A DNA stretch of 64,000 bases, from positions 281,190 to 345,189 of the forward strand of contig PADC01000011.1 of NCBI GenBank assembly GCA_002700385.1. Reading direction: 5' to 3'. The notes under the pieces are model-generated. The model had not been told where the DNA came from, ran no database searches, and was given only the letters and a program-made list of their open reading frames with translations. Source of the stretch: Cycloclasticus sp. (lineage in GTDB: Bacteria; Pseudomonadota; Gammaproteobacteria; Methylococcales; Cycloclasticaceae). Both the position numbers and the translations under genes were made by a program. Positions 13,995 through 56,935 of the stretch are shown piece after piece (the first letter of the stretch is position 1; each line of letters begins with the position of its first letter).

Positions 13995-14001
13995 CTCTTA
14001 T

Positions 14002-14006
14002 CCTCC
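14002..14006 (-). promoter_or_regulatory. Shine-Dalgarno site that points to the ATT start
   Basis: GGAGG on the minus strand is followed by seven bases and then ATT AGT AAG. The spacing is ideal, and no ATG, GTG or TTG is available in that frame near it. This is the main evidence for the ATT initiation codon of the Rieske alpha gene. Confidence 0.7.
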
Positions 14007-14045
14007 ATGAGCGCCCCACTGTGCTTAAGCGCCCTATGTTTGGTA

Positions 14046-14705
14046 TTAACCGATTTGCTCTTTACCCGCATCCATATCAGACATCACTGCTGCTGCAGCT
14101 TGCCACGATGGCTTATCCCGCAAACGAGCCAACCAAGCTAAAATATTGGGGTAGGGTGTTAAGTCAAGACCCAGAAGAAATGACAGAGAGGTAATCGCGC
14201 CACTAGCGATGTCTGCAATGGAATAATCACCGCAGATATATTCCTTCCCTGCGAGTTGATTATTCAAAATGCTTAACGTGCCTAAGAAGGCTTCTTTTGT
14301 ACTCGCAACCGTTGCCTCATCAGGTTCCGGTGCTGTCATAGCAAAAAAGAAATTGAGAAGCGCAGGTGCAAATGATGCGCCTTCCCACGCCACCCATTGT
14401 TGGACCTTAGCGCGTTCTTTTGAGTCTGTTGGCAATAAACCGGAAGATGGATTAGCATCAGCAAGGTACTGAAGAATAGCTCCAGACTCCCAAAGAATGA
14501 ACCCATTATCATCAATTGTTGGCGTTACACCGTTTGGATTTATTTGTCGGTAAGCTGCATCAGCAGGTCGACAATCCGCCATGCGATCTAGCGCGTTAAC
14601 TTCGTAATCTATACCCATTTCTTCCAAAGCAATAACGGCTTTGCAACCGTTGCGAGAACCACCAAACGGGTCGCCTTCTGCTTGAATATGATAAAGCTTG
14701 ATCAT
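14046..14705 (-). CDS. glutathione S-transferase family protein
   Basis: The 219-residue cytosolic GST has a thioredoxin-like N-terminal domain (residues 1-85: LYHIQAEGDPFGGSRNGCKAVIALEEMG, then INPNGVTPTIDDNGFILWESGAILQYLAD, where the NPNGVTPTI cis-proline and ESGAI glutathione contacts are visible) and an all-helical C-terminal domain (GDYSIADIASGA near 165 is the N-capping box). GSTs are common in aromatic catabolic operons, where they open epoxides or isomerise ring-cleavage products. It lies between two Rieske oxygenase gene groups, all on the minus strand. The substrate is unknown. Confidence 0.88.
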   Translation of the reverse strand: MIKLYHIQAEGDPFGGSRNGCKAVIALEEMGIDYEVNALDRMADCRPADAAYRQINPNGVTPTIDDNGFILWESGAILQYLADANPSSGLLPTDSKERAKVQQWVAWEGASFAPALLNFFFAMTAPEPDEATVASTKEAFLGTLSILNNQLAGKEYICGDYSIADIASGAITSLSFLLGLDLTPYPNILAWLARLRDKPSWQAAAAVMSDMDAGKEQIG

Positions 14706-14733
14706 TTTCTATTTCCTTATCTAAATTATTAAA

Positions 14734-15513
14734 TTAAATAGCCGTTAGGCCGCCATCGATACAAAAGTTTTGGCCAGTAGCAAAGCGGGATTCATCCGAT
14801 GCTAAATAGGTTGCACAATAAGCAATGTCTTCTGGTTGACCTAAAACATCCATCAGTTGTAATTTCATGATGTCATCAATCATTTTCTTTAAAACCTCTT
14901 TATCGGGGAAAACTGCAAATGCTGGCGTTTCAATCAGCCCGGGGGATATGCTATTAACGCGAATTTTGGCGGGCGCAAACTCTGCTGCCAACGTTCTTGT
15001 CATAGCAATCACACCGCCTTTAGTCATTGAATGCGCAAACTGATGAATATGGCCGGCAAACGTCGAGCCGATGACCCCCGCCGCGGACGCTGTATTAATG
15101 ACTGAACCGCCGCCGCGTCGCTTCATCACTGGAAAAGCATGTTTAATGGCGTAATACACTAAATCAAGTTCATTTCGTACCAGCCAGTGCCAGTCTTCTG
15201 TTGAGAATTCATCGATCTTGCCATAGCGTACGGCCGAGGCATTGTTGTATAAAATATCGAAGTCGCCGTAAGTTTCTACCGCGAAATCAATCCAATTTTT
15301 GACTTCGTCCTCATCACCCAAGTCAACAATGCGGCTGACCATTTCACCGCCTGCATCCACAACCCGACGCACCGTTTCCTCGTGCTCACCTTCTTTAACG
15401 TCACAACCGACTATTTTCGCGCCTTGCGCGGCAAACATCTCTGCCGCTGCACGGCCTTGCCCGCCAGCGGTACCCGTAATTAAAGCCACCTTCCCCGCTA
15501 GACGACCACTCAT
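14734..15513 (-). CDS. SDR family protein with His in place of the catalytic Tyr
   Basis: This 259-residue short-chain dehydrogenase-fold protein has TGTAGGQG near residue 14, NNAS near 91, a Ser in NTASAAGV near 142, and a family-type C-terminus FATGQNFCIDGG. The active-site motif usually reads YxxxK, but here it is HSMTK (near 161), so the catalytic tyrosine is a histidine. The catalytic lysine and NAD-binding parts remain. It may still act through another residue, have an altered reaction, or be inactive. It overlaps the following small gene by four bases and belongs to the amber-interrupted Rieske gene group. Confidence 0.82.
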   Translation of the reverse strand: MSGRLAGKVALITGTAGGQGRAAAEMFAAQGAKIVGCDVKEGEHEETVRRVVDAGGEMVSRIVDLGDEDEVKNWIDFAVETYGDFDILYNNASAVRYGKIDEFSTEDWHWLVRNELDLVYYAIKHAFPVMKRRGGGSVINTASAAGVIGSTFAGHIHQFAHSMTKGGVIAMTRTLAAEFAPAKIRVNSISPGLIETPAFAVFPDKEVLKKMIDDIMKLQLMDVLGQPEDIAYCATYLASDESRFATGQNFCIDGGLTAI

Positions 15514-15860
15514 AAAATAACCCTATCGCTAAAGCCCGACTTTTTGATCATCCTGAGTGAGTCAATACCCGTTCCTAAAACGGGAGCTTTCCATTTGTAC
15601 ACGGCATTATCAACTTCACACATGGCAAGAGCGGCTCTCGATAGCTTGAGATCATCTCCCACTAAATCAGCCAATTGAAATTGATTTAAGTAGTCAATAA
15701 TAGCGGGGAGCTTTGGTAACATTGCATAATGGAAAGCGTTAATCTCTTCCATCGTGCTGTTCATCCGTTTAACCAATCTTTCCTCCGTGGTAGGAAGTGC
15801 CCATAGATTAATTTCAACCTCAATATCACTGATATCTGGACGTGCTATAGCCTGACTCAT
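15510..15860 (-). CDS. small protein of unknown function next to a Rieske alpha gene
   Basis: This is a 116-residue soluble, mostly helical protein without signal or membrane segment. It reads DIEVEINLWALPTTEERLVKRM near residue 12, then a helical middle with HYAMLPKLPAIIDYLNQF, and ends in YKWKAPVLGTGIDSLRMIKKSG. Its start overlaps the stop of the Rieske alpha gene, and its stop overlaps the start of the SDR gene, each by four bases, so it is a real operon member. It occupies the place of a beta subunit but shows none of the SnoaL-like beta subunit motifs. I do not recognise the family. Confidence 0.6.
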   Translation of the reverse strand: MSQAIARPDISDIEVEINLWALPTTEERLVKRMNSTMEEINAFHYAMLPKLPAIIDYLNQFQLADLVGDDLKLSRAALAMCEVDNAVYKWKAPVLGTGIDSLRMIKKSGFSDRVIL

Positions 15861-17083
15861 TTCGATTCTCCTGTTCCTTTCACTGCACTCATTAAACGGT
15901 GGTAGAAAGCGCGTATAGCGATCTCCTGTTTATTGATCTGAATCTCTTTAATAACGCCTGCATTAAAATTCATTTGGATTCCTTCCGCTGTATATAGGTC
16001 TTCAGTCAACACATCTCTAATCTGAATTCGGCCTTGTTCAGAGTTAAATAATTGACCAAAGTCTTCCAGTTCACCTGTATGGAAAAAATCTACTTCCCAT
16101 AGGCATTCGCTTGGCGAAATAGGAAGCGTTCTTTGAACTAAAATTTGCCCTTTTTGGATAAATAAGACGACGTTAGGAAATAGCAAATAAGCATCAAAAA
16201 TCCATAATGGGTGGTCACTGAGAACACCCTCTCCATCCTTTGCAGTAAATTCATTTTCAGATTTTGTATATAAAGACGTAGCACCATGCTTTGCTGACAA
16301 CAAAGCCACATCCGTTTGTACCCCTGTCATTTCTTCTGGGCGATACGCACAAACCCTTGCTGGCACACCAATGCTTTCAGGGTATGCGTCAGCCGGAGCG
16401 TAGGAACCTGGAATAGCACCCGCAATGGTATTGCGGTGCGTCTGATCAACATGATAGCCTTCAATTTGCGCGTCCACTAACAACTTCCAGTTAGCATTAA
16501 ATTTAGCCCGCCAGCCATAACTCCATGTCCAATCTTTGTTACCTAAGTATTTATCATAAGAATCATTAAGCGGCTTTAGATACTCTTTCAATGAAACACT
16601 AGGCTCTGGATCTAAATTAATAAAAATGAACCCGCCCCATACATCAACAGACACTTTCTTAAGACCGAGTTTACTTTTATCAAAGTCACCAAAAAGCTCT
16701 TCACCTGGCACATCGGCCAACTGCCCTTCTGAATCAAAGACCCAGCCATGAAAATCACAGGTCATAAACTTTGCTCGGCCACAAGGCTACGTCAAAATAT
16801 GTGCTCCACGATGCGTACATGCGTTATAAAAAGCATTGACCTGCCCCTGTTTATCTCTCGTGACGATAATGGATATTTCTAACGCATCAATAAAAAAAGT
16901 AATATAGTCGCCATGCTCGGCAACGTCACTTTCTCGGCCTGCCATCAGCCAAGTTTTCTTGAATATCTGCTCTTTTTCCTGCTCAAAAAAGGCTTGCGAT
17001 GAATAGTGATCAGACGGTATTGCTTCCGTACCAAGTTCATGCGAGCCGAGGGGAGGTATAGCCATAACACTTTCGTTTCCCAT
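15857..17083 (-). pseudogene. Rieske oxygenase alpha subunit interrupted by one in-frame amber codon
   Basis: The frame 17083-15857 encodes a complete oxygenase large subunit of about 408 codons except for one TAG at 16789-16787. Before it are 98 codons ending in the first Rieske pair CTHRGAHILT; after it, in the same frame, come PCGRAKF and the second pair CDFHGWVFD, then iron ligands EGYHVDQTH and a normal C-terminus. CAG to TAG (Gln) is the simplest origin. No other damage is visible, so the change is recent, a sequencing error, or read through. A GGAG precedes the ATG at 17083. As read, the peptide would lack half the cluster and all the catalytic domain. Confidence 0.88.
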
Positions 17084-25369: not shown

Positions 25370-25861
25370 CTAGAGTAAAAAGGATAAGGTCGGTATTGGT
25401 TCTGTGCCATTAACCAAGACTATCTTTTTCATGTGAATCTGGAAGCTGTCACCACGTCGGCTAACCAGATACGTAACACGGCCTGACCAAATTCTAAAAT
25501 CACGCACCGACTGTATAGAAAATTCAGGAAGAAAGAAGTTGGCTTCAATCTGATAACGCCCTTCAGCCTGTTCAGAATATTCAAAGTTAGAAATAACCCG
25601 TCGCATTCCCGATACCGGTAATTGGCTATAACGGTAACCCGTTTTTAACTGACGAATTCTTGTGGCCAGGCGAGTGCGGTTATCATATAAAATTGAAACT
25701 TTTTGTGCAGGGTCATCATCTTCTTTTGCCGGCACCCAGTACACAGCATCATCTGCCCATAAATCTTCCCATTCCTGGTACTTTGACTCATCGGCTAATT
25801 TAGCTTCATGCACAATAAAATGTTCAAGCTCGTGCGCTACATCATGTGATACCTGTCCCAT
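25370..25861 (-). CDS. aromatic-ring-hydroxylating dioxygenase beta subunit
   Basis: This is the small subunit of a Rieske oxygenase, 163 residues. Seen are the N-terminal HELEHFIVHEAKLADESKYQEWEDLWADDAVYWVP, the SGMRRVISNFEY core, and IRQLKTGYRYSQLP. It lies directly after the alpha gene (one-base overlap) and directly before the thiolase-fold gene, in the usual alpha-beta order. It is diverged from the other beta subunits in this window, so the substrate should differ from that of PhnA1A2. Confidence 0.92.
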   Translation of the reverse strand: MGQVSHDVAHELEHFIVHEAKLADESKYQEWEDLWADDAVYWVPAKEDDDPAQKVSILYDNRTRLATRIRQLKTGYRYSQLPVSGMRRVISNFEYSEQAEGRYQIEANFFLPEFSIQSVRDFRIWSGRVTYLVSRRGDSFQIHMKKIVLVNGTEPIPTLSFLL

Positions 25862-27102
25862 TAGCCTTCCCCCGACATAACTTTACGGTAATGATGCCAA
25901 AAACCCCGATTTGAAGTTTCATCGGTCATGTGTGAGCTAATCACGCCATCTGCATCGGTTGTTTCCCTGTTCAAACCTCGACTTAAATCACACCATGGGT
26001 CACCTGATAACAAGGCTTTTTGCGCCCTTTCTGCAATACTCGCATCATCCGCTAATAAGAAAGCTGCCGGGCCTAACGCACCTTCACTTTGCCTGAGTAA
26101 CTTAAAATCCAATTCAGGTGCGCCATCTAAAAACATGGGGGTACTCCACTGTACCGCTGAGTTTGTATCGGTTGGTTGGAAAATAACGATATTCATTTCG
26201 CCTAAAAACAAGTTTGGGAAAATGCAGGCATGTGGCGGCCCATCAAACAATATTTTTTCAGCTTTTTCTGCGCCATACGCTTCATGCATACTATCGACAT
26301 AGGATTTTACTTTTTCAGGCGTCGACCCTAACCAATCGAGAGTTTTTGCATAACCCTCCGAAAAATCAATTTCCGTATGGCCATTACCCCAATCTTTAAT
26401 GACACCTTGAATACTCTCTTCTGTGCCAACAAATTCGCCATATTGGGAGTCAATCGCCATGACAAATGATTGGTGGACGTAATTGACATGGTACCCATCG
26501 GTATCATTTTCAGGCAGCATTTTCCAGTTTGCATCAAAACGTTGGCGCACCCAACCACCTTTCAAATCAATTTTTCCAGTCGGCGACATCTCACAAGATC
26601 GGTCTATTAGTGACTTTGCATTACCCAAATGCTCATCAAGGCTAATGACAGGCTCTTTGAAAGATGCAAAAACAAACCCTCGATAACTATCACTCGTTAA
26701 TGTTTGCAGCCTTAATTCATCCAGTGGTTTATCAAACCCCCCTGGGTACGCAACATCCATTAATTCCCCATCTAGATTGAACACCCAGCCATGATAAGGG
26801 CAGGTAAAATTACGTTTATTACCTTCCGTCTCATTGCATAACATATTGCCTCGGTGAGTGCAGCGATTTGAATGAACGTTAACTAAGCCGTTCTTGTCTC
26901 GCACCATAATGACCGATGACCGGCCGACTTCTCTAACAAGGTAATCCCCAACCTCTTTTATTTCGCTCTCGTGCCCGATGTAAACCCAGCCGTTTTGAAA
27001 TATTTTTTCAATTTCATCAGCATACACTTCATCAGAGGTATAAATAGAGCCGTGTATTTTGTCTTTCTGAATAAGCTGATGATAATCAATCTTGCTCGTC
27101 AT
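25861..27102 (-). CDS. aromatic-ring-hydroxylating dioxygenase alpha subunit
   Basis: This is a 413-residue Rieske oxygenase large subunit. The Rieske cluster ligands are CTHRGNMLC and CPYHGW (near residues 81-104), and the catalytic iron ligands are in NDTDGYHVNYVH near 202-213. The FPNLFLGEMNIV segment near 310 is typical of the catalytic domain. AAGGAG precedes the ATG. It heads the operon alpha, beta, thiolase-fold, DUF35, CoA synthetase. No ferredoxin or reductase gene lies nearby, so electrons must come from elsewhere, perhaps the pair at 53340-54773. Confidence 0.93.
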   Translation of the reverse strand: MTSKIDYHQLIQKDKIHGSIYTSDEVYADEIEKIFQNGWVYIGHESEIKEVGDYLVREVGRSSVIMVRDKNGLVNVHSNRCTHRGNMLCNETEGNKRNFTCPYHGWVFNLDGELMDVAYPGGFDKPLDELRLQTLTSDSYRGFVFASFKEPVISLDEHLGNAKSLIDRSCEMSPTGKIDLKGGWVRQRFDANWKMLPENDTDGYHVNYVHQSFVMAIDSQYGEFVGTEESIQGVIKDWGNGHTEIDFSEGYAKTLDWLGSTPEKVKSYVDSMHEAYGAEKAEKILFDGPPHACIFPNLFLGEMNIVIFQPTDTNSAVQWSTPMFLDGAPELDFKLLRQSEGALGPAAFLLADDASIAERAQKALLSGDPWCDLSRGLNRETTDADGVISSHMTDETSNRGFWHHYRKVMSGEG

Positions 27103-27650: not shown

Positions 27651-28856
27651 TTATTTAATGTCTGCAATCACGGCTCTTTCAACAAACCTTTCTGGTAAAG
27701 TGCCTGGCAATGCATAGGGCACAATATCTGCCGTGTCGTAAAATTCTTCAATAATCGGGTGCATTATTTTTCGCCATAAAGGGGGAACTAAGGTAACGAA
27801 TAAAATATTTAAATAACCCAAAGGCAAGCGAGGCGCTTTATCCATCACTCTTAATACTTGGTATGGGCGCCCAACATTGGCATGGTGATCAGAATGGCGA
27901 TCGATTTGGCACATGAAAAAACTACTGATAATCATACTGTCATCCCAAGCATGCTCAGGACGAATTTTTTCATAACTACCATCCGGGTTTTGTTTACGCA
28001 TTAGGCCATAGTGCTCTGCAAAATCAGCCGTCGCTAGCAACATTCTTGGAAAGATATATTGCATAATAAATAACGGCAAACTTATCCACCCAAACAGATA
28101 AACCAACAAAGAGAACCAGGCAACTTGGGCTACCGTAATTTTGATCATTTTATTATCAAGATTGAGCCAACTCAGCCCTTTTTTTGCTAGCCGTTTAGCC
28201 TCCACTTGCCAAGCGCATATTGACTTCCTAATCGTACTACGCAAAGCAAAGCGCCAAAAATTCTCGCCATACGGCGCTGTTGCATGATCTTCAGGCGTAG
28301 CAACCGTTAAATGATGATGAAAATTATGATACACATAAAAATCAGCCATACTGATTGGCGTCAACAAGGCTTGGCCCATAAACCGGTCGAATGCATTGCC
28401 GTGATGACAGAGTTCATGACCAGGAGTCGCGCCAAAACCTGTCACTAACCCTAATGAAATGGCCAAACCAATAATTTCCAGTGGGTTTAAGGGCTGATAA
28501 CTCACACCTAATGCAGTAAACATATCCATTGGCGTGTTGGTTAACAGCGAATATGCGAAAAGAGTTATTAAAAATTGTACCGGGATATAAAGCCAAAGCA
28601 TGAAACGATAAAACAGACTTTGCTCTAACTCTTGTTCCATTTCAGCGGGTGCATTCACTGGATCATCTCCCACTATCGGGTCAAGAATCATACAAATAAC
28701 AAAGGCCACAACGGTCAACCAATACCAATACCCGCCACCTAAAAAGTGAGCAATGACCGGTGTTGTGGCAAACAATAGGATGGGTATTGTTGTATAACGG
28801 GTAACAATACTCACCTTTCTCTTAATATTTTCTGGGGCATTTACTGTTGGTAACAT
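27651..28856 (-). CDS. AlkB-like membrane diiron monooxygenase
   Basis: This 401-residue integral membrane fatty acid desaturase/hydroxylase superfamily protein has all three histidine boxes of alkane or xylene monooxygenases: GHELCHHGN near residue 168, YHNFHHHLTVATPEDHATA near 200, and DRHSDHHANVGRPYQVLR near 325. These enzymes hydroxylate terminal methyl groups of alkanes or alkylbenzenes using rubredoxin or a ferredoxin-reductase partner; none is adjacent here. Its divergence from the meta-cleavage hydrolase gene and nearness to Rieske oxygenase genes suggests attack on a methyl or alkyl side chain. The exact substrate is open. Confidence 0.87.
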   Translation of the reverse strand: MLPTVNAPENIKRKVSIVTRYTTIPILLFATTPVIAHFLGGGYWYWLTVVAFVICMILDPIVGDDPVNAPAEMEQELEQSLFYRFMLWLYIPVQFLITLFAYSLLTNTPMDMFTALGVSYQPLNPLEIIGLAISLGLVTGFGATPGHELCHHGNAFDRFMGQALLTPISMADFYVYHNFHHHLTVATPEDHATAPYGENFWRFALRSTIRKSICAWQVEAKRLAKKGLSWLNLDNKMIKITVAQVAWFSLLVYLFGWISLPLFIMQYIFPRMLLATADFAEHYGLMRKQNPDGSYEKIRPEHAWDDSMIISSFFMCQIDRHSDHHANVGRPYQVLRVMDKAPRLPLGYLNILFVTLVPPLWRKIMHPIIEEFYDTADIVPYALPGTLPERFVERAVIADIK

Positions 28857-29885: not shown

Positions 29886-29933
29886 ACCCCACACGCCCTA
29901 AGCATTTTTCTTCTTAACACACTAACACATATA

Positions 29934-29960
29934 AAAAGGGGCCTTTATAAGGCCCCTTTT
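29934..29960. terminator. bidirectional Rho-independent terminator
   Basis: AAAAGGGGCCTT and AAGGCCCCTTTT make a perfect 12-pair stem with a three-base loop. The symmetric A and T ends serve the hydrolase gene on the plus strand, and any read-through from the RND gene on the minus strand. Confidence 0.88.
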
Positions 29961-29974
29961 CCTTTACTATTTCA

Positions 29975-30022
29975 AGATCGGCGGCTCACGTCACCAGTCA
30001 GGGTTCACTGAGCCGCCGATCT
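29975..30022. repeat. 14-base inverted repeat with 20-base loop
   Basis: AGATCGGCGGCTCA (29975-29988) and TGAGCCGCCGATCT (30009-30022) are perfectly complementary. It lies between the terminator at 29960 and the end of the RND gene (30052). It has no T-run, so it is unlikely to be a second terminator. It could stabilise the 3' end of the RND mRNA or be a repeat-family member. Confidence 0.7.
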
Positions 30023-30051
30023 CTATAGCCCATTAATTCACAAGGCCATGT

Positions 30052-32418
30052 TTATTCGGCTTTCACTTCTTCCTTCTGCTCATTGGACGGGTATAAAAAG
30101 CTGGCCAAGGCCGGAATTAATAAAACCGCACCAATCATGTTTACGAAAAACATATACGCTAACAAAATGCCCATATCTGCCTGAAATTTCAGGTCGGAGA
30201 AATACCAGGTAGCAACGCCCAACGTCATGGTGACCGAAGTAAAAGCCACACCGGTACCCACTTCTTTTAGCGATTCGTAATACGATTGTTGTAAAGACTC
30301 TCCCGCAGACTTGTGCGCCACCATCCGGGCAAAGAGGTAAATTCCATAGTCGACACCAACACCAACTCCCATTGCTAATACGGGCAGTGTCGACACTTTT
30401 AACCCTATCCCCAAATAAACCATCACCACATTTGCCAAGTAGGCAACCAAGGCCAGCGGCACAACGATACAAATCGTCGCTCTTATCGACATAAAGGTTA
30501 AAAAGCAAAAAGTACCCACCGCAGCAAATAAAATAAGTTCTATTTTGGTTTGCGCTTTGGCCACTATTTCATTTGTTGCCGCCATAATGCCCGCGTTACC
30601 CATGGCGGGGACAAATTCAACTTGCGTGTTCTTATTTTGGTCATTAAAGCCTTTAACCGCTTGCATCACTCGATCTAACGTTTCAGTCCGATGATCTGTT
30701 AAATAAATGGTCACTGGCATTATCGTGCAATCGTTGGAAAACAAGGCTTGAGACATTTCCACACGATAAATATTGGCTGATATCATTTTTTCATTTCGGG
30801 GAATCCCCAAAAATTTTGGATTTGCTTCGTAATTACCAATATTTCTTTCACGAATCACTTGAGAAAGCGCCTTAACAGATTGGACGCCTTCAACATTCTC
30901 CATTTGCCAAACAAAATCATCAATCGTTTGCATAACGCCAAAGTTAACACACGCGCCTTTTTCATCCGCTCTGGCCAAAATCACCAGCTCATCCAAGCCG
31001 ACGGAAAATTTAGATTGAATCGCATTAGCATCTTGGTTGTATTGAGCATCTGGCCAGAATTCAGGCGCCCCTGCTTCAACATCACCCACAATCAATTGAT
31101 CTTGTACTGATAACGTGTAAGCGCCCAAACCAAAGGCAAGAATTAATACAATGGCCGCATTTTTTTTCTCTGTTAACTTTGAGATTGTTTTCCAAAAAGC
31201 ATGATCAGCACCTTTAATACCATCTTCAGCTCTTTTAACTTCTTTTTCATTCAAATTAATGTAGGACAATAAAATAGGCAGCATGATTTTATTTGTAAGA
31301 AGCATCACCGCCACCCCAATACTGGCAATAATCCCAAGTTCTCTAATAATGGGAATGTCAATCAAGACAATAACACCAAAACCGACCGCATCCGAAACCA
31401 ACGCTGTTGCTCCCGGTATAAAGAGTTTATAAAAAGCACCCCGTGCTGCATCAGTTGGGCTTTCACCATTCACAACGCCTATTCGCCAAACATTGGTCAT
31501 TTGTATGGCGTGACTTACCCCAATCGCAAGAATTAAAAAGGGAACCAGTATGGACATAGGGTCAACACCATAACCAATTATTTTAACGATGCCTAACTGC
31601 CAACCCACTGAAATCAATGCTGTCGCGATAACCGCCAACGACAGTTTTATCGAACCTGCAAAAAAGTGCAGCAAGATAAACGTAATGATTAATGTAATGA
31701 CAAAAAAGCCTATAACTCCCTCTGCTCCATCAATCACATTGCCGATAAATGGTGCAAAACCGATAATGTGGATCTTGATCTCATCTGATCCGTAGGTCTC
31801 CCTGATTTTACTCAGCCTGCCCGCAAATTCCTCATAATCAATTTTTTGGTTTGTTATAGGGTCAATTTCTATCAAGTCCGCTATGATCAATGCGCCCGAT
31901 AAATCTTTAGCAACCGTTTTGCCAATTTCTGACGACTTGTATAAGTTACTTTTAACTTCCTCAATACGCTCGGGTGTGGCTATAAAATCTGCCGCAACGA
32001 TTCTCGAGCCTGTAAACCCTTCCTCACTCACGGCAACATAATTAACATTCGGTGTGAACAGTGACGTGACCGTCCTTGCATCAACACCGTCCATAACAAG
32101 AACCTCTGAGGTAATCTTTTCCAAGGTGGTTAAAAACTTTGCTGTAAACATATCTTCATTTTTGTTTTCAACAAAGATCGTGATACGGTTAGCCCCACCA
32201 AATTCATTACGGTATTTGGTAAATGTTTGCATATACGGGTGAGATAAAGGAATGGCTTTATCAAACCCAGGTGAAAGCTTTTGATTAAGCCCTTGATACC
32301 CCAAAAAGACGGTTATTAAAAGGCCGATGACTAAAAATAACAAACGATGCTTTAATAAAGCATCTGCCATAAAATCTGAAATCTTATGGACCAAATCTGA
32401 TTCGTGCTTCATGCTCAT
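30052..32418 (-). CDS. RND superfamily transporter (MMPL-like)
   Basis: This is a 788-residue inner-membrane protein with the two-halves architecture of RND/MMPL proteins: helix 1 near residue 28, a large periplasmic loop to about 220, helices 220-400 with GVDPMSILVPFLILAIGVSHAIQM, a second loop 430-610, and helices 620-775 with GVGVGVDYGIYLFARM. It is shorter than AcrB-type drug pumps. It lies directly downstream of a YCF48-like gene and near DUF1329 and DUF1302 genes. That neighbourhood recurs in bacteria growing on steroids, terpenes and aromatics and is thought to move hydrophobic compounds through the envelope. Direction and cargo are unproven. Confidence 0.85.
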   Translation of the reverse strand: MSMKHESDLVHKISDFMADALLKHRLLFLVIGLLITVFLGYQGLNQKLSPGFDKAIPLSHPYMQTFTKYRNEFGGANRITIFVENKNEDMFTAKFLTTLEKITSEVLVMDGVDARTVTSLFTPNVNYVAVSEEGFTGSRIVAADFIATPERIEEVKSNLYKSSEIGKTVAKDLSGALIIADLIEIDPITNQKIDYEEFAGRLSKIRETYGSDEIKIHIIGFAPFIGNVIDGAEGVIGFFVITLIITFILLHFFAGSIKLSLAVIATALISVGWQLGIVKIIGYGVDPMSILVPFLILAIGVSHAIQMTNVWRIGVVNGESPTDAARGAFYKLFIPGATALVSDAVGFGVIVLIDIPIIRELGIIASIGVAVMLLTNKIMLPILLSYINLNEKEVKRAEDGIKGADHAFWKTISKLTEKKNAAIVLILAFGLGAYTLSVQDQLIVGDVEAGAPEFWPDAQYNQDANAIQSKFSVGLDELVILARADEKGACVNFGVMQTIDDFVWQMENVEGVQSVKALSQVIRERNIGNYEANPKFLGIPRNEKMISANIYRVEMSQALFSNDCTIMPVTIYLTDHRTETLDRVMQAVKGFNDQNKNTQVEFVPAMGNAGIMAATNEIVAKAQTKIELILFAAVGTFCFLTFMSIRATICIVVPLALVAYLANVVMVYLGIGLKVSTLPVLAMGVGVGVDYGIYLFARMVAHKSAGESLQQSYYESLKEVGTGVAFTSVTMTLGVATWYFSDLKFQADMGILLAYMFFVNMIGAVLLIPALASFLYPSNEQKEEVKAE

Positions 32419-32428
32419 GGTTACAACC

Positions 32429-33379
32429 CTACTTCTGAATTAAGTCACTGAGTGACATCTCTGTAACACCACCTGTCATTGATGACAAATAGACCTTATT
32501 ATTTTGCACCGTCACCGCCGTATAATCTGCACGACTCTGGCTTTGTATGGTATTCGTTAATGTGCCTTCGTGATTTACAACCAAAATAATACCGCCACGA
32601 CCAACAACTAACGCCCCTCCAGTGGATTCTATTGAGGCCGACTCCAGCAGGAACTGATCGGTACCTGTTTCAACTTTTACCCACGCTAAGGTGCTTGAGT
32701 TAAGCAGATAGAGATTCCCACTCATGCCAAAAACCAAAAAATTATTACCTACCTTGTTGACGCCGAAAAAAGAGCCCTCATAAGGTGAACTGATCGCATT
32801 CCACTCTGTTTGCCCACTTTTTTTTGTAAAAATCCCGCCTCTTTCGCCTACCACTAAAAACGTATTATCAATTTTTGATATGGCAAACAGGTGATTTTGA
32901 TACCATTCCTCTACCGATAAAATCGTAAGACGCCAATTTTCTCCAGCATCTTCCGTCACCCATAATTCTCCGTCAGTCCCCAATACATAACCCTTGTTGG
33001 CCGTTATAAAATTAACAGACATATAGAAGCGTTCGTCATCGGGATTATATCGATTGATTTCCCAGCTATTTCCACCGTCACTGGTTTTTAAAATGGTCGA
33101 CTCGTGCCCTACAATCCAACCCTCTTTTTTTGAAGAAAATGTAATCCCCGTCAAGGTAACATCTACGGGAGATTGAACCTGATACCAGCTTTCACCTTTG
33201 TCATCAGATTTTAAAATGATGCCTCTTTCTCCAACAGCCAAAACACTTTCATCAGCGGTCACCAAATCTAAAAAAACAGCCTTTTTCGCTAATGGTAGTT
33301 CTAAAGCAGGGCGCGGTGACATTTCTGCAAAAGCAAGGTTGCTGAATAATAAAGTCAAACAAAATATAAATTTATACAT
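32429..33379 (-). CDS. exported YCF48-like (BNR repeat) beta-propeller protein
   Basis: This 316-residue protein has a signal peptide (FIFCLTLLFSNLAFA, cleaved near residue 18). Repeated propeller units with WYQV, GWIVG, TSDGGNSWE and VTEDAGENWRL Asp-box-type turns are spaced about 45 residues apart; VGERGGIFT and VGRGGIILV are later repeats. Similar to photosystem II assembly factor YCF48-like proteins, which in non-phototrophs have unknown roles. It sits 10 bases upstream of the RND gene and is likely its periplasmic partner. Confidence 0.82.
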   Translation of the reverse strand: MYKFIFCLTLLFSNLAFAEMSPRPALELPLAKKAVFLDLVTADESVLAVGERGIILKSDDKGESWYQVQSPVDVTLTGITFSSKKEGWIVGHESTILKTSDGGNSWEINRYNPDDERFYMSVNFITANKGYVLGTDGELWVTEDAGENWRLTILSVEEWYQNHLFAISKIDNTFLVVGERGGIFTKKSGQTEWNAISSPYEGSFFGVNKVGNNFLVFGMSGNLYLLNSSTLAWVKVETGTDQFLLESASIESTGGALVVGRGGIILVVNHEGTLTNTIQSQSRADYTAVTVQNNKVYLSSMTGGVTEMSLSDLIQK

Positions 33380-33402
33380 AACTAGACTTTTCCCACTGTT
33401 TT

Positions 33403-33434
33403 AAAAAAACCGAGGCCAGTCATCTAGCCTCGGT
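33403..33434 (-). terminator. Rho-independent terminator after the DUF1329 gene
   Basis: Arms ACCGAGG and CCTCGGT with a 12-base loop are followed by a run of seven T on the minus strand. It separates the DUF1302-DUF1329 transcript from the YCF48-RND transcript, or attenuates between them. Confidence 0.85.
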
Positions 33435-33456
33435 CTAAGCTTATGTAGACGTAAAT

Positions 33457-34920
33457 CTATCTACGCCCAAATTTTCGTAGGCCTTGCGGTGTAAAGATAT
33501 CAAGGTTAAAACTTATATCCGCTTCTTTTGAGGCCACTTTTTGTCCACCAAAGCCCATCCTCTCACCTGCTTGATACGGCCAGTAAGGGAACGTTGTATA
33601 TCGGCCATTGATAAGATCAACCTGCATATCACCAAGAGGCAATGAAACATTTGCGCCGGGGATAAACGCATTGTATTGCTGACCAACACGCCATAAACGG
33701 TCTTTTGCATCATAGGCTTCGAAAGCAACGCCTAACCAGGTGTCCTCATCAAAATATGCTGTGTGGCGTTTGTATAAATGGCGCTGACCTTCTTTGAGCG
33801 TTGTATCGATGACCCAAACGCGATGCAGTTCGTAGCGAACAACCTCTGAATTAATGTGTTCTTCTCCAAAAATCTCATCAAATGGGAGGTCTTTATTACC
33901 TAATTTGTAGTTGTTATAGGGCACATAAAGCTCTTTCCTCACCGGTTTAGAGAAATCAAAACGCGTATGCTTACCGCCAAAATAGTGCATCCAGCGACTT
34001 GCTACCGTTCGCTGCCCGTCTGAGGCAAAAGAAGGACTGTCATGAAAGCCAATTTCAGGGGCTTTACGTACGCGCCGCTGCCCTGGAACATATAAATACG
34101 TTTGGAAATCAAAATCTTGCGTATAGTTACAACCGCCAAAAACCAAGCCTGATGAACGCGGTGGCTCTTCAACTTGCCACGAGTCGCAAAGCATTGCCAC
34201 ACCATCACGGTTATACCATTGAACACTCCTAATTTTTGAGTCTGCTGGGAACCAATACGGCGAAATGGTACGCTGCCTGATAATCACATCAGTACGATTG
34301 CCATTTGAATCCGTTAACGCACCGTTGATCATTCGATCATTTGCAATACCCTTAAAGGCAAAGAAGTGGTTATAGGCCGCTTCCGCGCCTGTTTTTGGAA
34401 TGGGGAAAGGAATTCCACCACCTGGGATATCATTCTTTAAACAGACCTTTGACTCCGTTGCGTACTCATCACACAGGGCTACATTTTTTGCCTGAGACAA
34501 TGTCGCATCGTAAACCCATTTATCGTAGGCACCCGTGCGATGCGTTGGATAAATATGCATTTTAAAGCTTTCAGGGTATTGCTTGAATAGTGCAATTTGC
34601 CCCGGCGTTAGCTTTTCAGCATGCTCGGTATAATTTTGAGCCGTAATAGTAAACAAGGGTTTATCATCTGCAAAAGGGTCTACCAGACTATCCACTGTTC
34701 CACCGGGCAGTGTCGCCATCGGTTCGCTGTTCCACTCTGGAATCGTACCTTCTGCATTTCCTGCCCTTATGGCACCCATGGGGGTGAGTTCCGTACCATT
34801 TATACCCAATTTAGCTTCTTCTTCGGCCGTTAATTGAGCTAAAGCACTACCCGATATTAACGCTGCTGATAAAGCCAAACCCATTATACTTTTCTTATTT
34901 GATGTTAAAAATTTCATCAT
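33457..34920 (-). CDS. exported DUF1329 family protein
   Basis: The 487-residue protein has a signal peptide (residues 1-28, ending in ALAQL). The long DUF1329 domain begins at LTAEEEAKLGINGTELTPMGAIRAGNAEGTIPEW, and the mature protein resembles the LolA/LolB-like outer-membrane lipoprotein-binding fold. Its 5' neighbour is a DUF1302 gene, the standard partner. The pair is often induced by hydrophobic substrates. It might bind lipophilic molecules in the periplasm; this is inference. An alternative ATG three bases downstream (34917) has better SD spacing. Confidence 0.87.
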   Translation of the reverse strand: MMKFLTSNKKSIMGLALSAALISGSALAQLTAEEEAKLGINGTELTPMGAIRAGNAEGTIPEWNSEPMATLPGGTVDSLVDPFADDKPLFTITAQNYTEHAEKLTPGQIALFKQYPESFKMHIYPTHRTGAYDKWVYDATLSQAKNVALCDEYATESKVCLKNDIPGGGIPFPIPKTGAEAAYNHFFAFKGIANDRMINGALTDSNGNRTDVIIRQRTISPYWFPADSKIRSVQWYNRDGVAMLCDSWQVEEPPRSSGLVFGGCNYTQDFDFQTYLYVPGQRRVRKAPEIGFHDSPSFASDGQRTVASRWMHYFGGKHTRFDFSKPVRKELYVPYNNYKLGNKDLPFDEIFGEEHINSEVVRYELHRVWVIDTTLKEGQRHLYKRHTAYFDEDTWLGVAFEAYDAKDRLWRVGQQYNAFIPGANVSLPLGDMQVDLINGRYTTFPYWPYQAGERMGFGGQKVASKEADISFNLDIFTPQGLRKFGRR

Positions 34921-34963
34921 TTCTCCTTAAACACTGTCAATTTATTCTAATAATGATTAACTA

Positions 34964-36652
34964 TTAGAATGAGTAGCTGATATTTGCCTGAACAAAGTCA
35001 CGATCCGTGCGGCCATTCAAACGACTTCCGGCTTGGTTAACCATCGCCTCTGCGCCATCAAACATGGTCCAGCTAACGCCACCCGTCCACTTACCACCGC
35101 CATAACCAAAATCGACACCCAGTGTTAATGCTTTTCGGTCATCAACAAATAAAGGAACAATCTCGTTAGACACACCTTCCACGTCGTACTTAAACGCCAC
35201 GAAAGGTGAAACTGATGCCACATTGAATAAGGCCGCCTCGTAAGTTAGGGACTGCTTGATTTGGAAGCCCCAGAAATGTTCGGTAACCTGAGGGTTAAAG
35301 ACCGTTCTAAACGGGCCAATCAACGCTTCATTCTTTTCAGGCAAACCATCAACCCAGCCATAAGCGACTTCTGCTAAGGTGCTGTTCGCATCGGCACCCA
35401 TAAAGCCAACACCCCAAATGCGCTGAAAGGTCATTTGTAACTGGTGTCTGTCAACTTCTTCATAACCTTGAATCTCATCACCTTGGACACAAGTTCCACA
35501 ATTCACCGCAAAAAATGGTCCTGCTCCCAGGCCATTTAAAACAGGCCCCGTCATCTGAATAGGCGCATCTTTTCTCAAATGATATTCACCTGCAACAACC
35601 CAACCTTCAATATTGGTATTAAATGAAATACCAAAACGCTCAATATTTTCTACGTATTCAAGAAAGAAGGTGCCCGTATTGTAATACGTTGAAATCATGG
35701 GCGTATGATCGTGAAGGTTTTGGTAATAAATGGCAATTTCCCCACCATTAAACAAGTTTGGGAAAAATTTTCTAATGGCAAAACCATATTGGCCGCCATC
35801 TGGGTGTTTGTCGCCTACTCTCACCAAAGAACCGCCGACAAGTCCGCAATCATCAAGGCCGTCAGGTGCAATACAGGCACCGGAAGGAGCACCAAATGGA
35901 AGCGTTGCTGCTCCAGATGCAATACCACCAACAACGCCATCCCCATCTGTATCATAACCACCGCCTGCACCAACCGCATCGAGTGTTGTCCAAAATGAAC
36001 CTGCAGGGTCTAATTGAATTTGATCAAACTCGAAGAGATAAAAGGATTCAACTGTCCATTCGTCGCCTATATTCCAAGAAATATAGGCCGCATTCGTGCC
36101 AAGAAATGCATCTTTGAGCGCACGACCCGGCTGCCTAAGTTTATTTAAGTCAACCGTATTGATGTCATTAATTGAGCCTTGAATAAAGGTATTCTCACCC
36201 CAGCTGATCACTTGCTTACCAATTCGAATGTTGACTTGATCGTTATCACCAAAATAGCCATAAAACATCAAGTCTGTAAGCGTAAAATCTCGTGCTAGCT
36301 TGTCATGCGCTTTATCAGCAAGATCCTCGTTGTCGTAAACATGGTCATAAAAATAGTTACCCCGCGCCAACATACCAAAGTCACCATATTCCATACTTAA
36401 CGTACTAGAACCACGGATAGCATTGCTAAAAACATCACCTGCGTCTTCAAAAATCCTGTTTCCGTGAGCGCCTTGTTTATCATGATCCGCATCTTCTGTA
36501 CGAGCGGCGATAGCATAGGTAATATCGGTATCAAAAGCCCCTCTAAGTTCACCCTGCTTAAAGCTGAATGCTTGTGCTGTCCCGACCTGGGACAATAATA
36601 GTGCCGAGCTGAGTGCAACACCCACACTCGATTTTTTAATCGATTTCTTCAT
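34964..36652 (-). CDS. outer-membrane DUF1302 family protein
   Basis: The 562-residue exported protein has a signal peptide ending near AQAFSF (residue 30) and alternating beta strands ending in the C-terminal outer-membrane motif ANISYSF. The sequence has FDTDITYAIAART near residue 40 and RIGKQVISWGENTFIQGSINDIN near 140, the hallmark of DUF1302. It is predicted to be a beta-barrel for passage of hydrophobic compounds, paired with DUF1329. A palindrome with FNR-like half-sites lies about 100 bases upstream. Confidence 0.87.
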   Translation of the reverse strand: MKKSIKKSSVGVALSSALLLSQVGTAQAFSFKQGELRGAFDTDITYAIAARTEDADHDKQGAHGNRIFEDAGDVFSNAIRGSSTLSMEYGDFGMLARGNYFYDHVYDNEDLADKAHDKLARDFTLTDLMFYGYFGDNDQVNIRIGKQVISWGENTFIQGSINDINTVDLNKLRQPGRALKDAFLGTNAAYISWNIGDEWTVESFYLFEFDQIQLDPAGSFWTTLDAVGAGGGYDTDGDGVVGGIASGAATLPFGAPSGACIAPDGLDDCGLVGGSLVRVGDKHPDGGQYGFAIRKFFPNLFNGGEIAIYYQNLHDHTPMISTYYNTGTFFLEYVENIERFGISFNTNIEGWVVAGEYHLRKDAPIQMTGPVLNGLGAGPFFAVNCGTCVQGDEIQGYEEVDRHQLQMTFQRIWGVGFMGADANSTLAEVAYGWVDGLPEKNEALIGPFRTVFNPQVTEHFWGFQIKQSLTYEAALFNVASVSPFVAFKYDVEGVSNEIVPLFVDDRKALTLGVDFGYGGGKWTGGVSWTMFDGAEAMVNQAGSRLNGRTDRDFVQANISYSF

Positions 36653-36751
36653 GAAACTCCCCCTTGTAATATTTTAACGACACCTTTTTACACCGGTGTT
36701 GCACAAAACATACACCTAACTAACGCAGGTTCGATATAAATTTCAGCAGAA

Positions 36752-36771
36752 AAAATGATTTAAATCATTTT
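36752..36771. promoter_or_regulatory. 20-base palindrome with TGAT-N4-ATCA half-sites
   Basis: AAAATGATTTAAATCATTTT is a perfect 20-base palindrome, 100 bases before the DUF1302 start and 38 bases after the glmS stop. Its core TGAT-TTAA-ATCA has the geometry of an FNR/Anr-family site. Being AT-rich with flanking T, it could equally act as a weak terminator of glmS. Confidence 0.4.
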
Positions 36772-36809: not shown

Positions 36810-38639
36810 TTATTCGACGGTTACAGATTTAGCCAAATTACGGGGTTGGTCAACATCCGTCCCCTTTAACAAGGCGACATGATAAGCCAATAGCTGCAGA
36901 GGAACGGTGTAGATAATCGGTGCAATTATTTCACTAATTTCAGAAACCCGGATAATTTCTAACCCTTCAGTCTCTTCAAACGTTGCATGCACATCTGCAA
37001 AAACAAATAGCTCGCCACCGCGCGCTTGAACCTCTTGAAGGTTCGATTTTAATTTCTCTAATAAATCATTATTTGGCGCTACTGCTACAACGGGCATTTG
37101 ATCATCGACTAATGCTAGTGGCCCATGCTTTAACTCACCCGCTGGGTAGGCTTCTGCATGAATGTAGGAAATTTCTTTTAGCTTTAAAGCCCCCTCCATA
37201 GCCACTGGATACTGCTCACCCCGACCTAAAAATAGCGCATTATGTTTATCGTTAAATTTTTTTGAAAACTCAATAATTTCAGGTTCCAATCGAAGCACTT
37301 CGGCTACTTTTTCAGGCAATACTTCCAACTGCCTCACAATCTCGATATGTGTTTTTTCATCAATGGCATGGTATTTACCAAGACTTACTACGAGTAATAA
37401 AAGAGCCGTCAGTTGGGTGGTAAATGCTTTTGTTGAAGCAACCCCTATTTCTGGCCCAGCTTTTGTCATTAACGACCATTCAGACTCTCGAACCAGTGAA
37501 CTTTCAGGGACATTGCAAATGGCTAGCGTATGCGCATAGCCAAGCTCCGATGATGCCTGTAGTGCCGCTAAGGTATCGGCCGTCTCTCCTGATTGAGAGA
37601 TGGTCACAAACAACGTGTTACTTTTAACAATATGTGGCCGGTATCTAAATTCACTCGCCACTTCAATATGACAGGGTAGCCCGGCAACGGATTCGAACCA
37701 ATACTTTGCAACAAGCCCCGCATGAAAACTGGTTCCACACGCGACGATTTGAACTTCCTGAATGCTTTTGAAGGCTTCTTCAGCTGCTTCACCAAAGCAA
37801 CTCGTTAATATTCGACCATTTTCGATACGGCCTTCAAGCGTATGTTTAAGAACTGCAGCCTGTTCAAAAATTTCTTTTTGCATGTAGTGGTCGTATTCTC
37901 CTAGTCCTACCGTATCTGCCTGCAATGTTGTTTGATTGATTTTTCGTTCAACTGGCTGACCTGACTCATTGTAGATCGTCACACTATCATGCGTCATATC
38001 CGCTACATCCCCATCTTCCAGATAGATAAAATGTTCTGCTTCCCCCAGCAACGCAAATACATCTGAGGCAATAAAGTGCTCATTATTCCCGATGCCTATC
38101 ACCAGAGGGCTGCCTTTTCTAACAGCAACCATGTGGTTATTATTACCTTTCTCAAGAACACCAAGGGCATACGCTCCTTGCAATGACTCAACTGTTTTTT
38201 GAACCGACGTCAGGAGATCTTTACTTTTTTTGTATTCATCATCAATGGCATGAACGATAACTTCTGTGTCTGTTTCTGAATCAAACTCGTGCCCAAGTTC
38301 TAGCTGCTTTTTTCTCAGTGATTCAAAATTCTCAATAATGCCGTTATGAACCAAGGTAATTTCATTACATCTATGGGGATGCGCATTCTTTTCAGACGGA
38401 ACACCGTGTGTCGCCCAGCGAGTATGGGCAACGCCACATTGCCCCGATAGTGGCTGCGCTCGTATGAGCTCGTCGAGGTTTTTGACCTTACCCTGCGTAC
38501 GCCGCCTTTCAAATCCATGATCAGCCGCCACAACAGCAATGCCAGCCGAATCATAGCCGCGGTATTCAAGCCGTTGTAACCCTTTAATAAGGACACCGGT
38601 AATGTCTCGTTGTGATACGGCCCCTACTATTCCACACAT
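36810..38639 (-). CDS. glmS: glutamine-fructose-6-phosphate aminotransferase
   Basis: GlmS makes glucosamine-6-phosphate, the first step of UDP-GlcNAc synthesis. Starting at 38639 the protein reads MCGIVGAVSQRD with the N-terminal nucleophile Cys and has 609 residues, the normal length. The ORF extends 13 codons further up without family similarity. Motifs include HTRWATHG near residue 75, two SIS domains with CGTSFHAGL near 300 and SQSGETADT near 348, and the C-terminal KSVTVE. It starts 12 bases after glmU, so glmU-glmS is an operon. Confidence 0.97.
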   Translation of the reverse strand: MCGIVGAVSQRDITGVLIKGLQRLEYRGYDSAGIAVVAADHGFERRRTQGKVKNLDELIRAQPLSGQCGVAHTRWATHGVPSEKNAHPHRCNEITLVHNGIIENFESLRKKQLELGHEFDSETDTEVIVHAIDDEYKKSKDLLTSVQKTVESLQGAYALGVLEKGNNNHMVAVRKGSPLVIGIGNNEHFIASDVFALLGEAEHFIYLEDGDVADMTHDSVTIYNESGQPVERKINQTTLQADTVGLGEYDHYMQKEIFEQAAVLKHTLEGRIENGRILTSCFGEAAEEAFKSIQEVQIVACGTSFHAGLVAKYWFESVAGLPCHIEVASEFRYRPHIVKSNTLFVTISQSGETADTLAALQASSELGYAHTLAICNVPESSLVRESEWSLMTKAGPEIGVASTKAFTTQLTALLLLVVSLGKYHAIDEKTHIEIVRQLEVLPEKVAEVLRLEPEIIEFSKKFNDKHNALFLGRGEQYPVAMEGALKLKEISYIHAEAYPAGELKHGPLALVDDQMPVVAVAPNNDLLEKLKSNLQEVQARGGELFVFADVHATFEETEGLEIIRVSEISEIIAPIIYTVPLQLLAYHVALLKGTDVDQPRNLAKSVTVE

Positions 38640-38650
38640 ATAAATCCCTT

Positions 38651-40009
38651 TTAACTTTTCGTCGGCTTCTTCCAGCAATTTAATGTTACTTGTTTAGCTC
38701 GGCTCACGGTCAATGCTTCTGCCGGCGCATCTTTTGACAGTGTTGTACCCGCACCCAAGGTTGCACCCTCGCCCACACTTACTGGCGCTACCAGCTGTGT
38801 TCCTGAGCCTATAAAAGCCCCGTCTTTAATCTCGGTTCGGTGTTTATTAACGCCGTCATAATTACACGTAATGGTGCCCGCACCCACATTAACACCTTTT
38901 CCTATTTGCGCATCACCTATATAGCTGAGGTGGTTAATTTTTGAACCTTCACCAATCGCTGTGTTTTTAACTTCAACAAAATTACCAATGTGGACATCCT
39001 CTGCCAAGTCAGCCCCGGGTCGAATCCTAGCAAACGGTCCTATCGTGCAATTTTTGCCAATAACACAATTTTCTAACACTGAATTTGCTTTAATCACAAC
39101 ACCCTCACCAATCGTTGCATTTTCAATGACACAATTTGGGCCTATATGCACATGACCACCTAAACTAACATGACCGAGAAATACCGTGTTAACATCAATA
39201 AAAACATCATGGCCCGTTATCGCCAATTTCCCGCGGATATCAATCCTTTTGCTATCAGCCAGCGTAACACCCTCGTTCATCAGTGTCTCTGCCTGTTGAA
39301 GTTGATAATGCCGTTCTAGTACACAGAGCTGACTTTTCGAATTTACACCCTGCACTTCAAATTCATCTTCTGCTTGTATCGTGTTAATACTTACGCCTTC
39401 GCTAACAGCCGTTTCAATAATATCTGTTAGATAATATTCCGTTTGCGCATTATCATTCCTTAGCATCTTTACCCAGGAGACCAGCTGGTCTCCTTTGACA
39501 GCCATAATGCCAGTATTAACCTCTTTAATTAACAACTCAGAGCCAGAAGCATCTTTCTGCTCGACAATTTTGCTGACTTTATTATCCACCCTAACTATTC
39601 GCCCGTAGCCTGTTGGGTCATTAAGCTTAACGGTTAACAGTGACAGGGCTCTGTCGCTAACACTCTCAACCATTTTGCCCAACGTTTTGGATTGAATTAA
39701 AGGCACATCACCATATAAGATTAAAACAACGTCATCCGACATGATATGGTCAACTGTTTGCAGAACGGCATGACCGGTTCCAAGTTGTTCAGCTTGTTCT
39801 ACCCAGTTAATGTCAAGATGAGAATGCTGCTGCTTTACTTGTTCACCATCATGCCCATACACCACAACCACATCACTATTAAAAGGCTGAACAGATTCAA
39901 TAACATGCTGCAGCATGGCTTTTCCTGCAATCTCATGTAACACCTTGGCCTTATTTGATTTCATCCGCGTGCCTTTTCCCGCGGCAAGAATGATTGTCTT
40001 GATCGTCAT
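38651..40009 (-). CDS. glmU: bifunctional UDP-GlcNAc pyrophosphorylase / glucosamine-1-P acetyltransferase
   Basis: GlmU makes UDP-GlcNAc for peptidoglycan and lipopolysaccharide. The N-terminal domain (1-230) has ILAAGKGTRMKSNKAKVLH; the left-handed helix domain (250-450) carries hexapeptide repeats and RIRPGADL, ending with the acetyltransferase residues HLSYIGDAQIG and GAGTITCNYDG. The length of 452 is normal. It starts downstream of the ATP operon terminator, so it has its own promoter in the 40010-40050 region, or it depends on read-through. Confidence 0.97.
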   Translation of the reverse strand: MTIKTIILAAGKGTRMKSNKAKVLHEIAGKAMLQHVIESVQPFNSDVVVVYGHDGEQVKQQHSHLDINWVEQAEQLGTGHAVLQTVDHIMSDDVVLILYGDVPLIQSKTLGKMVESVSDRALSLLTVKLNDPTGYGRIVRVDNKVSKIVEQKDASGSELLIKEVNTGIMAVKGDQLVSWVKMLRNDNAQTEYYLTDIIETAVSEGVSINTIQAEDEFEVQGVNSKSQLCVLERHYQLQQAETLMNEGVTLADSKRIDIRGKLAITGHDVFIDVNTVFLGHVSLGGHVHIGPNCVIENATIGEGVVIKANSVLENCVIGKNCTIGPFARIRPGADLAEDVHIGNFVEVKNTAIGEGSKINHLSYIGDAQIGKGVNVGAGTITCNYDGVNKHRTEIKDGAFIGSGTQLVAPVSVGEGATLGAGTTLSKDAPAEALTVSRAKQVTLNCWKKPTKS

Positions 40010-54773: not shown

Positions 54774-54877
54774 GCGGCTCCTCTTACTTCAAATATATTA
54801 ATTTGTATTAAAAGGTTATTATATTACCTTCAAACAAACAAGTTGTGTTTAAAGTCAACTTTAAGGCGAGAAATTCA

Positions 54878-55564: not shown

Positions 55565-55566
55565 AT

Positions 55567-56766: not shown

Positions 56767-56864
56767 GCGCTTCTCCTCTTTTTTTAAGCTTTTCTCAATA
56801 AGCTACTGTATTACCGACGACTCAAGATGGCAAGACACCCCTTTACGCTGTTTGTTTACAAAAT

Positions 56865-56878
56865 TTGATTTGGATCAT
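56865..56878 (+). promoter_or_regulatory. FNR/Anr-type site upstream of the truncated haemoglobin
   Basis: TTGAT-TTGG-ATCAT matches the FNR/Anr consensus TTGAT-N4-ATCAA at nine of ten positions. It is 58 bases before the haemoglobin ATG, close to the usual -41.5 activation distance, given a start near 56913. No FNR gene is in the window. Confidence 0.7.
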
Positions 56879-56935
56879 GGTCGACATTTCATCATAATGC
56901 GACAGTAATTGTTAAAAAACATCATAGGAAAAAGA

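Follow-up and report, generated by a model that had tools for sequence, protein, structure and literature searches.

An AmeABCD-type gene module with a conserved internal terminator and an oxygenase-associated palindrome in Cycloclasticus

Described relatives of the module and its gene content

The closest described counterpart of the genes studied here is AmeABCD of Castellaniella defragrans 65Phen, which comprises the same four protein families in the same order, lies in a hydrocarbon-degradation island and was published with a proposed channel from the outer to the inner membrane and an RND protein affiliated to HAE3 (PMC6394551). In the present study, a stretch of 64,000 nucleotides from Cycloclasticus sp., a marine degrader of oil (contig PADC01000011.1, positions 281,190 to 345,189; referred to as the window) was analysed, in which four genes at positions 30052–36652 encode members of these families next to oxygenase genes. 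In our judgement, there is an even chance that these genes represent an AmeABCD-type trans-envelope module for outward or partition-controlling transport of polycyclic aromatic hydrocarbons (PAHs) or their first intermediates.

After deletion of ameABCD, C. defragrans grew poorly on hydrocarbon monoterpenes and normally on oxygenated ones, tolerated less limonene and accumulated more Nile Red (PMC6394551). Related genes were described in Pseudomonas putida, where PP_0765/PP_0766 and PP_2018/PP_2019 encode DUF1302 and DUF1329 proteins as well as a periplasmic protein and, with a related phenotype, a transporter, all predicted to interact; they differ from the window in occupying two separate loci and are required for growth on Tween 20 (PMC10866462). 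The ‘nanopod’ cluster of Ca. Anaerobenzenivorax ORM2a unites a porin-like protein, DUF1329, YCF48 and an MMPL protein, whereas this organism is an anaerobic benzene degrader and carries two extra genes between the halves (PMC13101534). In the phenanthrene degrader Delftia sp. Cs1-4, a DUF1302–DUF1329 pair (DelCs14_1756/1757) was found in nanopods, a separate surface structure built with NpdA (PMC3110197), for which the window gave no evidence. A sequence-only reading of the window had held that no transport mechanism is known for such genes and that a path for PAHs across the envelope would be new. The former statement disagrees with the deletion phenotype and the proposed channel published for AmeABCD (PMC6394551), and the latter was overstated, as modules of this class have been described before and occur widely.

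The same reading had placed a barrel, a DUF1329 protein, a propeller and an MMPL-type RND protein in succession; the coordinates proved to be exact, and Pfam matches were obtained for all four proteins. The features are as follows:

34964–36652, minus strand: DUF1302 outer-membrane barrel gene (AmeA-like), 562 amino acids (aa); Pfam PF06980, 394 bits (cut-off 23.2), E 1.6e-117
33457–34920, minus strand: DUF1329 periplasmic LolA-fold protein gene (AmeB-like), 487 aa; Pfam PF07044, 343 bits (cut-off 23.1), E 2.4e-102
32429–33379, minus strand: YCF48/BNR propeller gene (AmeC-like), 316 aa; Pfam PF14870, 74.4 bits (cut-off 27), E 1.2e-20
30052–32418, minus strand: MMPL/HAE3-like RND transporter gene (AmeD-like), 788 aa; Pfam PF03176, 97.2 bits (cut-off 20.5), E 1.2e-27
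33403–33434, minus strand: intrinsic terminator or attenuator between both half-operons, 10-bp stem and seven T, conserved with covariation
36755–36768, no strand assigned: palindrome ATGATTTAAATCAT, candidate CRP/FNR-type operator, 103 bases upstream of the DUF1302 start

The gene content is that of the AmeABCD type, namely DUF1302, DUF1329, COG4447/YCF48 and an HAE3-like RND protein in this order and on one strand, with intergenic gaps of 43, 77 and 10 bases and, as read from the sequences, signal-peptide-like N-termini on all three exported proteins. The likeness to the C. defragrans system, judged by its published description, consists of families, order and sizes (605/451/316/787 aa there versus 562/487/316/788 aa in the window). 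The two differ in their context, which is monoterpene degradation in C. defragrans and PAH degradation in the window, the latter falling into a branch with other PAH degraders; neither an internal terminator nor an operator is described in the available text on AmeABCD (PMC6394551).

Co-occurrence and distribution of the module

Gene-neighbourhood analysis, which the sequence-only reading had proposed as a check, was performed for 276 gammaproteobacterial genomes of at least 90% completeness, with family-specific thresholds (DUF1329 1e-20, RND 1e-40, YCF48 1e-8, and DUF1302 cut by hand near 1e-20). All four families were present in 40 genomes and formed a single cluster in 36 of these, mostly in the order DUF1302–DUF1329–YCF48–RND; the lack of co-occurrence named beforehand as counter-evidence was not seen. 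Pairwise Fisher tests gave values of 1e-31 or lower, where related genomes are not independent. Among the matches listed, 51 of 80 named loci featured the exact order on the matched strand, including loci from Alteromonadales, Betaproteobacteria, Desulfuromonadia, Acidobacteriota and Verrucomicrobiota, and the module is therefore not PAH-specific. The gene set matches AmeABCD, and related sets occur in P. putida, Delftia and the benzene degrader; it is likewise frequent in bacteria that are not known to metabolise PAHs. Across 54 modules, the identity matrices obtained for the four proteins correlated with each other (Mantel r 0.84–0.92 versus at most 0.21 after permutation), and part of this co-divergence is shared species history. 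No plasmid copies of the module closer than 43% identity were found. In a variant, DUF1302–DUF1329 is followed by a 1011-aa protein (locus L049, and L050 by matching open reading frame size) that by size resembled an AcrB-type pump. This assignment was rejected; in L049, the protein is a PAS/histidine kinase following a phosphonate-binding-type protein.

By the RND gene, the nearest named relatives of the window, among the matches listed, are records of Cycloclasticus. In the tree of RND proteins, the protein from the window was placed among those of such modules, in a comparison made without the C. defragrans AmeD sequence. It fell into a group (SH-aLRT 100) that, among the matches listed, consists of Cycloclasticus, Rugosibacter and Immundisolibacter only. 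Rugosibacter, a betaproteobacterium, and Immundisolibacter were also the nearest relatives outside the genus for each of the four proteins separately, again among the matches listed. Both genera were reported in PAH degradation (PMC7530279, PMC9535955), and bacteria of this kind were previously inferred to have exchanged oxygenase genes (PMC9535955). The locus of Thauera terpenica (L168) contains YCF48 and RND genes only and is not established as its ame locus.

Within Cycloclasticus, an orthologue of at least 81% identity was detected in all six dioxygenase-bearing genomes of at least 90% completeness, and in none of the four genomes (98–100% complete) that lack a ring-hydroxylating alpha subunit. 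Two of these four have no such RND gene, and the other two carry an RND protein of 41–42% identity. An exact test calculated by hand, in which relatedness is ignored, gave 1/210 for this distribution. Differences in substrate use between Cycloclasticus clades have been described, some being specialised on short-chain alkanes and others on aromatics (PMC12510462).

Internal terminator, palindrome and surrounding genes

The terminator proposed earlier as a divide between two half-operons was corroborated by comparison of orthologues. The hairpin (33433–33403) consists of a 10-bp stem, CCGAGGCTAG/CTGGCCTCGG, an ATGA loop and seven T; it was missed by an automatic promoter and terminator scan, probably because the stem runs into the T run. 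At the gap between the DUF1329 and YCF48 genes, it is kept in seven of eight Cycloclasticus orthologues, and in the alignment of these seven, 97.1% of the cells pair, four pairs change on both sides, and the covariation score was reached by none of 500 shuffles. Among 53 named modules from other taxa, 23 carried a terminator-like hairpin at this position, and none was found in the other two gaps or in shuffled gaps, a result favoured by the shorter length of the other gaps (median 20 and 5 bases versus 74). In P. putida, the module is split into its two loci at the place of the terminator (PMC10866462), and in ORM2a, the first two proteins were represented by 106 and 158 spectra, compared to 65 and 60 for the last two (PMC13101534). 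Together with the conservation of the hairpin, these data suggest two halves of one system with unequal output, in which the internal terminator would lower the output of the propeller and RND half relative to the barrel and carrier half.

The palindrome upstream of the DUF1302 gene, previously labelled FNR-like, reads ATGAT-TTAA-ATCAT. Compared with the FNR consensus TTGAT-N4-ATCAA, both outer bases differ and only the core TGA-N6-TCA is kept, so that it does not qualify as an FNR box; when two mismatches are allowed, the window contains 83 copies of the consensus, and the label alone therefore carries little meaning. What stood of that claim is a conserved site common to oxygenase promoters. 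The exact core is rare, with three sites in the 2.5-Mb genome, and a TGA-N6-TCA site lies upstream of the DUF1302 gene in seven of eight orthologues, also at the loci L044 and L045, where the module is found elsewhere in the genome. Pattern search of the source genome (2.52 Mb, 13 contigs) returned six exact matches to ATGAYTTANRTCA, five of which lie at a distance of 56–140 bases upstream of a gene, namely the first gene of the module, three dioxygenase alpha genes and one AmoC-type monooxygenase gene; the remaining match is intragenic. Of 46 sites in eight dioxygenase-bearing genomes, 10 are situated ahead of dioxygenase genes, compared to 0.16 expected; since several of the ten represent the same gene in different species, this corresponds to about five independent cases. 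In dioxygenase-free genomes, five of six examined sites were intragenic. As a site common to the module and oxygenase genes at a frequency above chance, the palindrome is a candidate operator. Other genes adjoining such sites encode a nitroreductase, a bacterial globin and a COX1-type oxidase, neighbours that would be in keeping with a CRP/FNR regulator responding to oxygen or redox state.

A four-cysteine FNR-type protein (238 aa from Met9) is encoded approximately 29 kb away (locus L037, 5592–6332; source genome C6:346591–347331). It features CX2CX5C and a central cysteine, an ETVSR recognition helix, a location amid dioxygenase genes and the length of DPR-2 of strain P1, of which it is probably an orthologue; given its iron–sulfur-type cysteines, it may sense oxygen as well. 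DPR-2 of strain P1 is reported to be a cyclic di-GMP receptor that binds three PAH promoters, the only ones listed for it from chromatin immunoprecipitation sequencing (PMC8547461). When these promoters (ferredoxin reductase, rhd3 and rhd2 operons) were matched in the source genome by gene type and length, the best palindrome scores were 5.0, 4.2 (or 5.7) and −6.6, compared to 21.2 before the module. Because the matching promoters are without good sites, binding of the palindrome by DPR-2 is not claimed.

A perfect copy of the palindrome lies 140 bases upstream of AmoC/AmoA-type hydrocarbon monooxygenase genes (locus L188, 4998–8452; source genome C3:278997–282451). Between the palindrome and the DUF1302 start, at about 36685–36720 of the window, an inverted repeat ACACY...RGTGT shows matched variation between species and is possibly a second operator or a leader structure.

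The oxygenase genes claimed to adjoin the module were recovered by the Pfam scan, and the surroundings comprise the following genes:

36810–38678: glmS-like gene upstream of the module, named from sequence
27651–28856: membrane desaturase/hydroxylase-type gene
25370–27102: Rieske dioxygenase alpha/beta pair

The latter two follow an alpha/beta hydrolase gene beyond the RND end of the module. Between the RND gene and the hydrolase gene (29886–30051), the window contains a strong two-way terminator only; a Rieske oxygenase-like gene occupies this junction in three related genomes (L040, L046 and L047) and was confirmed by Pfam in L040. Further dioxygenase genes of the window lie at 12639–16765 and 53751–62543, together with an extradiol dioxygenase (298 aa) and a ferredoxin reductase (340 aa) that match rcd and ferR of strain P1 in length, which makes the window appear syntenic with the PAH cluster of P1. 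In total, the source genome encodes one DUF1302 gene, four long DUF1329 genes and one additional RND gene of the same type, 29% identical to that of the module. The latter is part of a divergent second system at a contig end (L037, 13090–19329; source genome C6), which also includes a DUF1329 protein, a pyrroloquinoline quinone (PQQ)-dehydrogenase-type protein and a 651-aa protein without a Pfam match.

Transport function and alternative explanations

Structure models were calculated from alignments built with window and genome sequences only. The DUF1329 model (pLDDT 88) adopts a LolA fold (Foldseek matches LolA3 9tp6, E 3e-16, and the DUF1329 structure 4z48, E 1e-12). The DUF1302 model (pLDDT 79) is a porin-like barrel whose matches to specific porins and AlgE are weak and generic (query-normalised TM-score 0.35–0.47), and the YCF48 protein matches Ycf48 structures. 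The RND profile matches the structures of MmpL3, MmpL5 and HpnN; with 123.6 bits (E 6.9e-36) against TIGR00921, below the curated cut-off of 351.9 bits, the protein is, by its profile score, related to HAE3 and outside the curated subfamily. In an alignment of 21 RND proteins, Asp690–Tyr691 in transmembrane helix (TM) 10 is invariant, and TM4 carries Ser302–His303–Gln306 in all sequences; for TM4, the evidence is this alignment, as the scan of named genomes used a pattern containing the motif. Related pumps carry an aspartate at the corresponding TM4 position. Proton-relay acidic residues, expected in TM4 and TM10 of MMPL/HAE3 proteins, were therefore not found in TM4, and a variant relay using histidine is possible. 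The lipid transporters HpnN and MmpL3 share the RND family, the TM10 Asp–Tyr motif and presumably a hydrophobic cargo with the protein of the window, from which they differ in TM4 and by low sequence similarity.

In the MmpL/HpnN branch, RND proteins extract hydrophobic molecules from the inner membrane; LolA-fold proteins ferry acyl chains through the periplasm, and barrels can accept or pass such molecules at the outer membrane. Most likely, the module is a proton-driven mover of hydrophobic compounds between the inner and the outer membrane. The RND protein would use the proton gradient via Asp690–Tyr691 and lift hydrophobic molecules from the inner membrane, the DUF1329 protein would hold them in its cleft and carry them across the periplasm, the barrel would take or pass them at the outer membrane, and the propeller may scaffold the complex. 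In Cycloclasticus, the module would be tied to hydrocarbon oxidation via the common CRP/FNR-type operator. By export or partition control, it probably serves mainly to prevent a build-up of PAHs and their oxidised intermediates in the inner membrane. Outward or partition-controlling transport is favoured on account of the published ameABCD phenotype, which indicates export or tolerance no less than uptake.

Several points weigh against this interpretation. The module is common in Alteromonas, Rheinheimera and Opitutia, for which, to our knowledge, no PAH metabolism is known. Among the neighbours scanned in Rugosibacter and Immundisolibacter, no oxygenases were present, and the orthologue is missing from five dioxygenase-bearing Cycloclasticus genomes, which are less complete (58–87%), so that the fit with dioxygenases is not perfect. 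None of the 22 genes from a transposon screen of Cycloclasticus P1 for growth on PAHs was named as one of these four (PMC8547461), and the need for the P. putida homologues on Tween 20 fits uptake better than export (PMC10866462). The data establish the gene content, the folds, the co-inheritance of the four genes, the conserved terminator, the operator site shared with oxygenases and the co-distribution with dioxygenases; PAHs as cargo, the direction of transport in the Cycloclasticus lineage, proton coupling, the formation of a complex, the effect of the terminator and the identity of the regulator are what we infer.

A more far-reaching version is possible, and we advance it tentatively: a PAH-specialised AmeABCD lineage may have moved across orders from one PAH degrader to another (Cycloclasticus, Immundisolibacter and Rugosibacter) and, in Cycloclasticus, come under the CRP/FNR-type switch of the dioxygenases, forming an envelope route dedicated to PAHs or to the first products of their oxidation.

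Uptake appears rather unlikely to us. Here, the barrel would admit PAHs, the DUF1329 protein would carry them through the periplasm, and the RND protein would pass them on to the inner membrane as the site of dioxygenase action. The common operator and the co-distribution with dioxygenases fit substrate supply equally well, and the barrel model resembles substrate-specific porins, if loosely. Against this, bacterial RND proteins of this branch move their cargo outward, and PAHs are able to cross membranes by diffusion. In published work, a role in substrate transport was proposed for the P. putida homologues (PMC10866462), and Delftia reportedly grows less well on phenanthrene after deletion of a DUF1329 gene (as cited in PMC13101534), whereas the ameABCD deletion led to more dye accumulation and less tolerance (PMC6394551).

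It is doubtful that the module supplies the outer membrane with a native lipid, lipoprotein or wax-like product, needed by PAH degraders for membrane repair or surface hydrophobicity. The wide occurrence outside PAH degraders, the LolA fold and the RND relatives MmpL3 and HpnN would agree with such a role. However, this form of the module is absent from the nearly complete dioxygenase-free Cycloclasticus genomes, its operator is common to oxygenases, and published homologues are linked to growth on or tolerance of specific substrates (PMC10866462, PMC6394551). A chance proximity to oxygenases with no functional tie to PAH metabolism is very improbable: the module does lie away from the oxygenase neighbourhood in several Cycloclasticus genomes (L041, L044 and L045) and apart from scanned oxygenase genes in Rugosibacter and Immundisolibacter, but the operator moves with it at L044 and L045, module and dioxygenases were lost together in Cycloclasticus, and the branch is common to PAH degraders.

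In the available literature on this module class, we found no PAH-degrader branch, no co-distribution with dioxygenases within a genus, no operator shared with oxygenases and no family-wide internal terminator. How very hydrophobic pollutants pass through the Gram-negative envelope, or are prevented from clogging it, has long been an open question, and the names of DUF1302 and DUF1329 still stand for ‘unknown function’. The comparative data provide a defined and testable hypothesis, with one module, one internal terminator, one operator shared with oxygenases and a natural absence in dioxygenase-free relatives. With a branch common to PAH degraders and a switch common to some ring-attacking enzymes, a role of the module in moving oil compounds through the envelope becomes directly testable.

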